Of a DNA stretch of 64,000 bases, positions 45,107-45,413 are shown one piece after another (position 1 is the first letter of the stretch; the number at the start of each line of letters is the position of its first letter). Source of the DNA: Pelagibacterales bacterium SAG-MED22 (GTDB taxonomy: Bacteria > Pseudomonadota > Alphaproteobacteria > Pelagibacterales > Pelagibacteraceae); the NCBI GenBank assembly GCA_014653985.1, contig JACWDT010000002.1, forward strand, positions 62,001 to 126,000, in the 5' to 3' direction. Under the pieces are notes generated by a model. That model worked only from the letters and a program-made list of their open reading frames with translations, did not search any database and was not told where the DNA came from. The position numbers were made by a program, and so were the translations under genes.

Positions 45107-45149
45107 ATATATTACTATTGATAACCATTAATTATCATTAGTAATATAT
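45107..45149. repeat. 18-bp inverted repeat, 7-bp spacer, abutting integrase start
   Basis: ATATATTACTATTGATAA (45107-45124) / TTATCATTAGTAATATAT (45132-45149); arms match 17/18, spacer CCATTAA. Confidence 0.8.
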
Positions 45150-45242
45150 CAAGAGTTTTCAGATGTCAAATAAAATAATTAATCATTTTTAAGGACAATT
45201 AATGATGTTGCGAGCTCAGTAATGATGAAATATAATTAAAAA

Positions 45243-45413
45243 ATGGGCATAGACGGAGTAATTGAACCAATATATTTTCTAATCACTTCTATTGGTTTTG
45301 TAATTTTGAGCTTTATTCAGTATAAAAAAACAGGAAAATCCTTAGAAACGATCTATCTATTTATTTTAGCTGTTTTTTTTATAGTTTGCTTTATTATTTT
45401 AAATTTTTATTAA
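45243..45413 (+). CDS. 56-aa membrane micro-ORF upstream of MGMT-like gene
   Basis: MGIDGVIEPIYFLITSIGFVILSFIQYKKTGKSLETIYLFILAVFFIVCFIILNFY; two predicted TM segments; TAATG stop/start overlap; below ORF-track cutoff. Confidence 0.6.
   Translation: MGIDGVIEPIYFLITSIGFVILSFIQYKKTGKSLETIYLFILAVFFIVCFIILNFY

Follow-up and report, generated by a model that had tools for sequence, protein, structure and literature searches.

The stretch of DNA analysed here (the window, 64 kb, within one contig of a genome that is 96.6% complete) carries on its minus strand a gene for a single tyrosine recombinase, hereafter Int. An inverted repeat at 45107-45149 adjoins the ATG of this 318-aa integrase gene (45106). 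An earlier note on this DNA had reported an 18-bp inverted repeat with a 7-bp spacer at the integrase start codon, and we recovered it at that place, with arms at 45107-45124 and 45132-45149 that are complementary at 17 of 18 positions. The 64-kb window holds no other repeat of equal size and quality, and 100 first-order shuffles of the window gave a mean of 0.01 such repeats (maximum 1). In the whole genome the pattern is present in a single copy, even with up to 3 mismatches allowed.

Int combines a Pfam Phage_integrase domain (2.8e-21) with a SAM-like N-terminal domain. Its catalytic set is intact and common to plasmid relatives and XerC/XerD homologues (Table 1). A structure prediction of Int had a mean pLDDT of 40 and was discarded.

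Table 1. Features of the int locus in the window
Feature	Position	Strand	Remarks
Single tyrosine recombinase Int, 318 aa	44150..45106	-	catalytic R158, K185, H266, R269, H292, Y301
Putative dif-like core site, type I	45112..45144	-	TTACTAATGATAA-TTAATGG-TTATCAATAGTAA (13-7-13); in 81/81 orthologous loci
Left arm, gene-distal	45132..45144	-	TTACTAATGATAA; free variation within the arm confined to columns 7-8
Asymmetric 7-bp spacer, putative strand-exchange overlap	45125..45131	-	TTAATGG; conserved across loci
Right arm, gene-proximal	45112..45124	-	TTATCAATAGTAA; nearly invariant
-10-like element	45141..45146	-	TATTAC; 17 bp from the -35-like element, overlaps the first site bases; assigned from spacing
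-35-like element	45164..45169	-	TTGACA; near-fixed distance from the site across loci; assigned by consensus match only

A 33-bp core site is conserved in front of int

We compared the window with the loci of the best 80 integrase relatives, all of which come from SAR11 (Pelagibacter) genomes. Their alignment reduces the conserved unit from the full 43 bp to the inner 33 bp, as the outermost repeat bases on the ATG side vary among relatives. This core site precedes int in every one of the 81 loci, with 0-2 mismatches to a degenerate type I consensus (minus strand: TTACTAAYGATAA, spacer TTAATKG, TTATCAATAGTAA) that 65 copies match in full, 15 with one mismatch and 1 with two. The conservation beside orthologous integrases on which the earlier note had made its reading depend is therefore borne out throughout this set. 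The 3' end of the site lies about 5 bp from the int ATG in most loci and 1-13 bp from it across type I loci.

Mean pairwise identity in the 81 loci is 95% over the site vs 50% at third codon positions of int. Free variation is limited to arm columns 7 and 8 and to spacer column 6, the spacer being TTAATTG in 41 loci, TTAATGG in 36 and another sequence in 4. Such an asymmetric, almost invariant spacer fits a strand-exchange overlap rather than the spacer of a repressor site.

A hairpin in the RNA leader of int, acting in translational control or as a terminator, would be well served by the window copy with its 17/18 complementary positions. In most loci, however, arm positions 7-8 are unpaired and no compensatory change is seen, and only 10-12 of the 13 arm positions are complementary in 77 of the 81 loci. 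The primary sequence hardly varies, and the orphan copies in phages (see below) adjoin another gene. We consider this explanation very improbable.

The site overlaps a promoter-like element

The disposition of the core site suggests that it also covers a putative int promoter, TTGACA-N17-TATTAC (Table 1). This agrees with the proposal of the earlier note that the position of the repeat at the integrase ATG also fits an autoregulatory operator. Since the site overlaps this element and reaches to about 5 bp from the ATG, binding of Int to the site would be predicted to repress int as well.

The same arrangement, with a conserved promoter-like element and a site ending so close to the ATG in most loci, is what would be expected if the repeat were an autoregulatory operator and nothing else, bound by Int or by a separate repressor, with no recombination taking place there. 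A repressor has no need of a conserved asymmetric spacer, however, and the arms occur in about 100 pelagiphage-like contigs that lack an int gene to be regulated. An operator would also leave unexplained why the site lies at the terminus and why XerCD is absent, both described below. We regard an operator-only function as unlikely, even if it is the least unlikely of the alternatives considered here.

Int is a fixed neighbour of a variable island

The genes upstream of the site, coding for an AEC transporter, an EamA transporter and a methyltransferase-like protein, are constant in nearly all loci long enough to include them; those just after the int stop vary by species and are, by reading of their sequences, mostly glycosyltransferases and methyltransferases. 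In the window this variable island runs from 44150 down to 41768, and in it, as in the other loci (L002-L081), glycosyltransferase, methyltransferase and sugar-modifying genes are found. In many loci a 700-aa glycosyltransferase and a GIY-YIG protein mark its far boundary, to which the window adds a tRNA-Glu and a GlpX-like gene. On the other side, small divergent ORFs (45243-45413 on the plus strand in the window; also in L002-L081) occupy the interval from the methyltransferase-like gene to the int promoter. They encode 54-157 aa and belong to several families, some membrane-protein-like. As these ORFs differ between species, the region on that side of the site varies too.

The species-specific genes directly after the int stop raise the possibility that the site is an attL belonging to an integrated mobile element or to this hypervariable island, which Int would insert and excise. 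Such an element should have a second core copy at its far end, but the 80 loci searched show none up to about 11 kb away. The order and family genomes scanned have one site each (in two apparent exceptions a single place had been counted on both strands). Moreover, a phage- or plasmid-type integrase gene would be expected on a mobile element, and here the position of int and its chromosomal upstream neighbours are constant in nearly all loci, which implies that the gene does not move. We thus hold the attL explanation to be improbable, more so than an operator. Its genomic context marks Int as an orthologue of fixed position that borders a variable island, and not as part of a mobile element. 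Of the earlier account, the core site and its operator-like placement at the start of int stand; a role in inversion or excision does not, as a second copy of the site was found neither in the genome nor in the relatives scanned.

The site lies at the replication terminus

The core site is located at the replication terminus. Cumulative GC skew in the window peaks at 42-46 kb. In the one genome for which the full skew was computed (G002, complete, 1,343,202 bp, 99.8% read), the GC-skew maximum falls at 615,774, 1.8 kb from the site (617,602), and the TA skew is lowest at 620,847. The GC-skew minimum, at 1,290,841, is about half a chromosome away from the site. Two further genomes (G113 and G006), sampled in 20-kb pieces, show changes of skew sign around the site. 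In G186, which carries the second site type described below, the skew is positive approaching the site at 1,013,357 (sampled up to 970 kb). A KOPS-like motif, GAGNAGGG, which was picked post hoc, is polar towards the site with a ratio of 34:7 overall and 7:0 within 100 kb.

Int is the only tyrosine recombinase of the cell

Int is the only PF00589 protein of its own genome. Among seven single-contig genomes of the genus, five have one tyrosine recombinase (G001, G002, G005, G006 and G113). The same search found matches in 14/14 control genomes. PF00589 was absent from 11 of 114 genus genomes, and drafts lacking Int or the site probably reflect assembly gaps.

Int falls far under every NCBIfam Xer cut-off: it scores 77.7 bits on the XerD model TIGR02225 and 69.7 bits on the XerC model TIGR02224 (cut-offs about 330), and its 49.6 bits on the XerS model NF003462 (cut-off 267) place it outside the XerS family. 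XerC and XerD are both absent from its own genome and from the five single-contig genus genomes with one recombinase. In a sister family of the same order, each of the best five genomes checked has two recombinases; two examples were scanned and gave an XerD homologue of 314 bits and an XerC of 284 bits (read from an internal start). FtsK is retained in SAR11 with its gamma domain. The position at the terminus, next to the gene for the only recombinase of the cell, makes chromosome dimer resolution, the role of dif, the likely job of the site.

Two site types and plasmid-type relatives

Other Pelagibacteraceae carry a second site type at the equivalent position, TTCCGATAA-TTAATGG-TTATCGGAA, in which both arms are changed alike and the spacer is kept. 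The Int proteins of these type II genomes are shorter (about 304-308 aa). Type I was found in 155/297 order genomes and type II in 65/298 family genomes, and type I is absent from all 47 type II genomes common to both scans. In a tree of Int, the type I proteins form one clade of 99 plus one deep branch (G118), and type II is basal and paraphyletic. This change of the arms together with the type of recombinase, and the conserved asymmetric spacer, strengthen the case for the core-site geometry of tyrosine recombinases that the earlier note had recognised in the repeat. The deep-branching Int of G118 (L233/L257) has a type I-like site although its relatives have type II; either a second origin of these arms or an exchange of the module may account for this.

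The closest relatives of Int that we found outside SAR11 are plasmid integrases, with 45% identity to that of Alicyclobacillus pAACI01 and 41-42% to those of Paenibacillus and Protochlamydia plasmids; phage matches reach at most 29%. A GATAA-N6/7-TTATC palindrome lies upstream of 4 of 7 plasmid recombinase genes checked. That of pPNK, TAACGTTCGATAA-TGTGTTC-TTATCGAACGTTA, is perfect over 13 bp. When viral contigs were searched with the type II arms alone, at least 14 had an Int-family gene nearby, and for nine viral Int-family genes with a located start codon the site lies 28-235 bp upstream. Because the arms led to Int-family genes in this search, and plasmid genes have such palindromes, Int-family recombinases and these arms belong together. 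The SAR11 module probably descends from plasmid-type recombinase/site modules and replaced XerCD-dif in Pelagibacteraceae.

With plasmid genes as the nearest relatives outside SAR11, one could also see in the locus a functionless conserved relic of plasmid or phage integration at the terminus. All six catalytic residues are kept, however, the site is far better conserved than third codon positions, and both are retained in streamlined genomes across the family. This makes a relic the most improbable explanation of all.

Phages carry orphan copies of the site

The exact type I site occurs in 3 viral contigs and the type II site with spacer TTAATNG in 26, with no Int near the site in any of these 29. 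In most of them there are terminase, portal or capsid genes resembling those of the pelagiphages HTVC106P or HTVC010P. We considered whether these matches were misfiled host DNA and rejected this, given the phage genes in most of them and the lack of Int in all 29. A search with a free spacer of 5-9 bp retrieved at least 176 viral contigs. At least 100 site-bearing contigs are pelagiphage-like and Int-less; in these the median distance between site and TerL is 345 bp. Arms are also present in at least 62 viral contigs (among L273-L298 and L333-L479) that match neither Int-family genes nor the pelagiphage proteins tested; these may in part be other phages or chance matches.

At least 13 viral contigs pair a perfect type I site with an adjacent, equally perfect type II site (L335, L344, L358, L383, L395, L398, L403, L404, L429, L435, L436, L475 and L283). 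These tandem pairs match two site types that are mutually exclusive in hosts. Among phage isolates, where 0.017 site matches are expected per shuffled genome, HTVC106P, HTVC100P and HTVC035P carry degenerate site pairs, and Greip, HTVC024P, HTVC034P and Skadi single or weaker sites. At the threshold used, no site was found in HTVC010P, nor in the stretches read of HTVC028P, HTVC203P, HTVC204P and Lederberg. Of 12 phage isolates scanned, HTVC028P alone has a PF00589 protein. Its tyrosine recombinase gene (W12:8992-9585; L097) accompanies a terminase-region stretch in which no site was read.

Viral type II spacers are mostly TTAATCG, TTAAACG, TTAAATG or TTAATTG, whereas those of hosts are TTAATGG or TTAATTG. 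Viral type I spacers are varied, TTTATGA being the commonest. That phage spacers mostly differ from host spacers favours recombination among phage genomes over recombination with the host dif. The host enzyme would then resolve phage multimers or circularise phage DNA, and insertion into the host dif would be less likely for the same reason. The type I and type II copies in tandem look as if they were there to suit both host types. A terminase search of 300 genus genomes gave matches in one genome and no prophage at the site, so that integration into dif is without direct support. The matching genome (56% complete) has two phage terminase copies in opposite orientation on one contig (G429:C20; L299, L300); this may be a phage contig, or the doubling may be an artefact of amplification.

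Many HTVC010P-type phages encode an integrase, and the most abundant pelagiphages have no known integration mechanism (PMC11094077). We put at slightly better than even the chance that a plasmid-derived module replaced XerCD-dif in SAR11 and that its enzyme also processes the orphan sites of Int-less phages of the HTVC010P and HTVC106P kind. The phage part is the least certain of all our conclusions.

Discussion

We propose, with a probability of roughly 0.87, that SAR11 resolves its chromosome dimers at this dif-like core site and that the adjoining Int is the single Xer-type recombinase acting there. From the sequences we infer binding and cleavage by Int, dependence on FtsK, dimer resolution and autorepression. 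Two Int protomers would bind the two 13-bp arms, and the two sites of a chromosome dimer would synapse at the septum, where FtsK probably brings and activates them. Strand exchange across the 7-bp overlap would yield two monomers.

A 2009 survey that looked for the known Xer families found Pelagibacter to be without a dif/Xer system and took its absence to indicate that such machinery can be lost during genome reduction (PMC2731167). This is the only statement on a SAR11 dif by name that we found in the literature, and we found none to the contrary. If our proposal is true, the dif/Xer machinery of SAR11, which is among the most abundant marine cell types, was exchanged rather than lost, and a plasmid-type module serves a whole family. 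The site would then be a precise terminus marker for SAR11 genomes, and the module a new recombination system that uses one protein and comes in two natural site specificities. It would also offer a testable reason why very abundant phages without an integrase carry a host recombination site.

Among known systems, Cre of phage P1 likewise acts as a single recombinase, and the GHSxR motif of Int is Cre-like, but sequence similarity between the two is weak (E about 1e-7). Its target loxP has 13-bp arms and an 8-bp spacer. The plasmid tyrosine recombinases of Alicyclobacillus pAACI01 and Protochlamydia pPNK share 40-45% protein identity with Int, and pPNK has its upstream palindrome; they differ in being plasmid-borne and in their outer arms and spacers. 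With XerCD/dif, the SAR11 module has in common the tyrosine recombinase catalytic set, a palindromic site at the GC-skew switch and FtsK gamma. XerCD/dif, however, uses two recombinases and a distant site, and SAR11 is without both genes whereas its sister family has both.

Several traits of single-recombinase Xer/dif systems are found in SAR11: one recombinase with no XerC/XerD, a palindrome at the terminus and a gene-linked site that is AT-rich and intergenic, as in XerS/difSL and XerH/difH. Their six-base centre is not among them, since dif, difSL and difH have 6-bp spacers and that of SAR11, assuming 13-bp arms, is 7 bp. The arms of difSL are unrelated in sequence to those of the SAR11 site, and Int lies far from XerS on the XerS model (49.6 against 267 bits). 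XerS/difSL of streptococci and lactococci is alike in having one recombinase and a gene-linked site at the replication terminus (PMC2731167). XerH/difH of Helicobacter and Campylobacter is alike in its single recombinase and usually linked, intergenic site of low G+C at the terminus; it differs in its hexanucleotide centre and in that XerH, compared here by description only, is described as a separate lineage (PMC2731167). Judging from sequence, we conclude that the SAR11 module is a single-recombinase Xer/dif-like system comparable with XerS/difSL and XerH/difH, but built on a plasmid-type recombinase.
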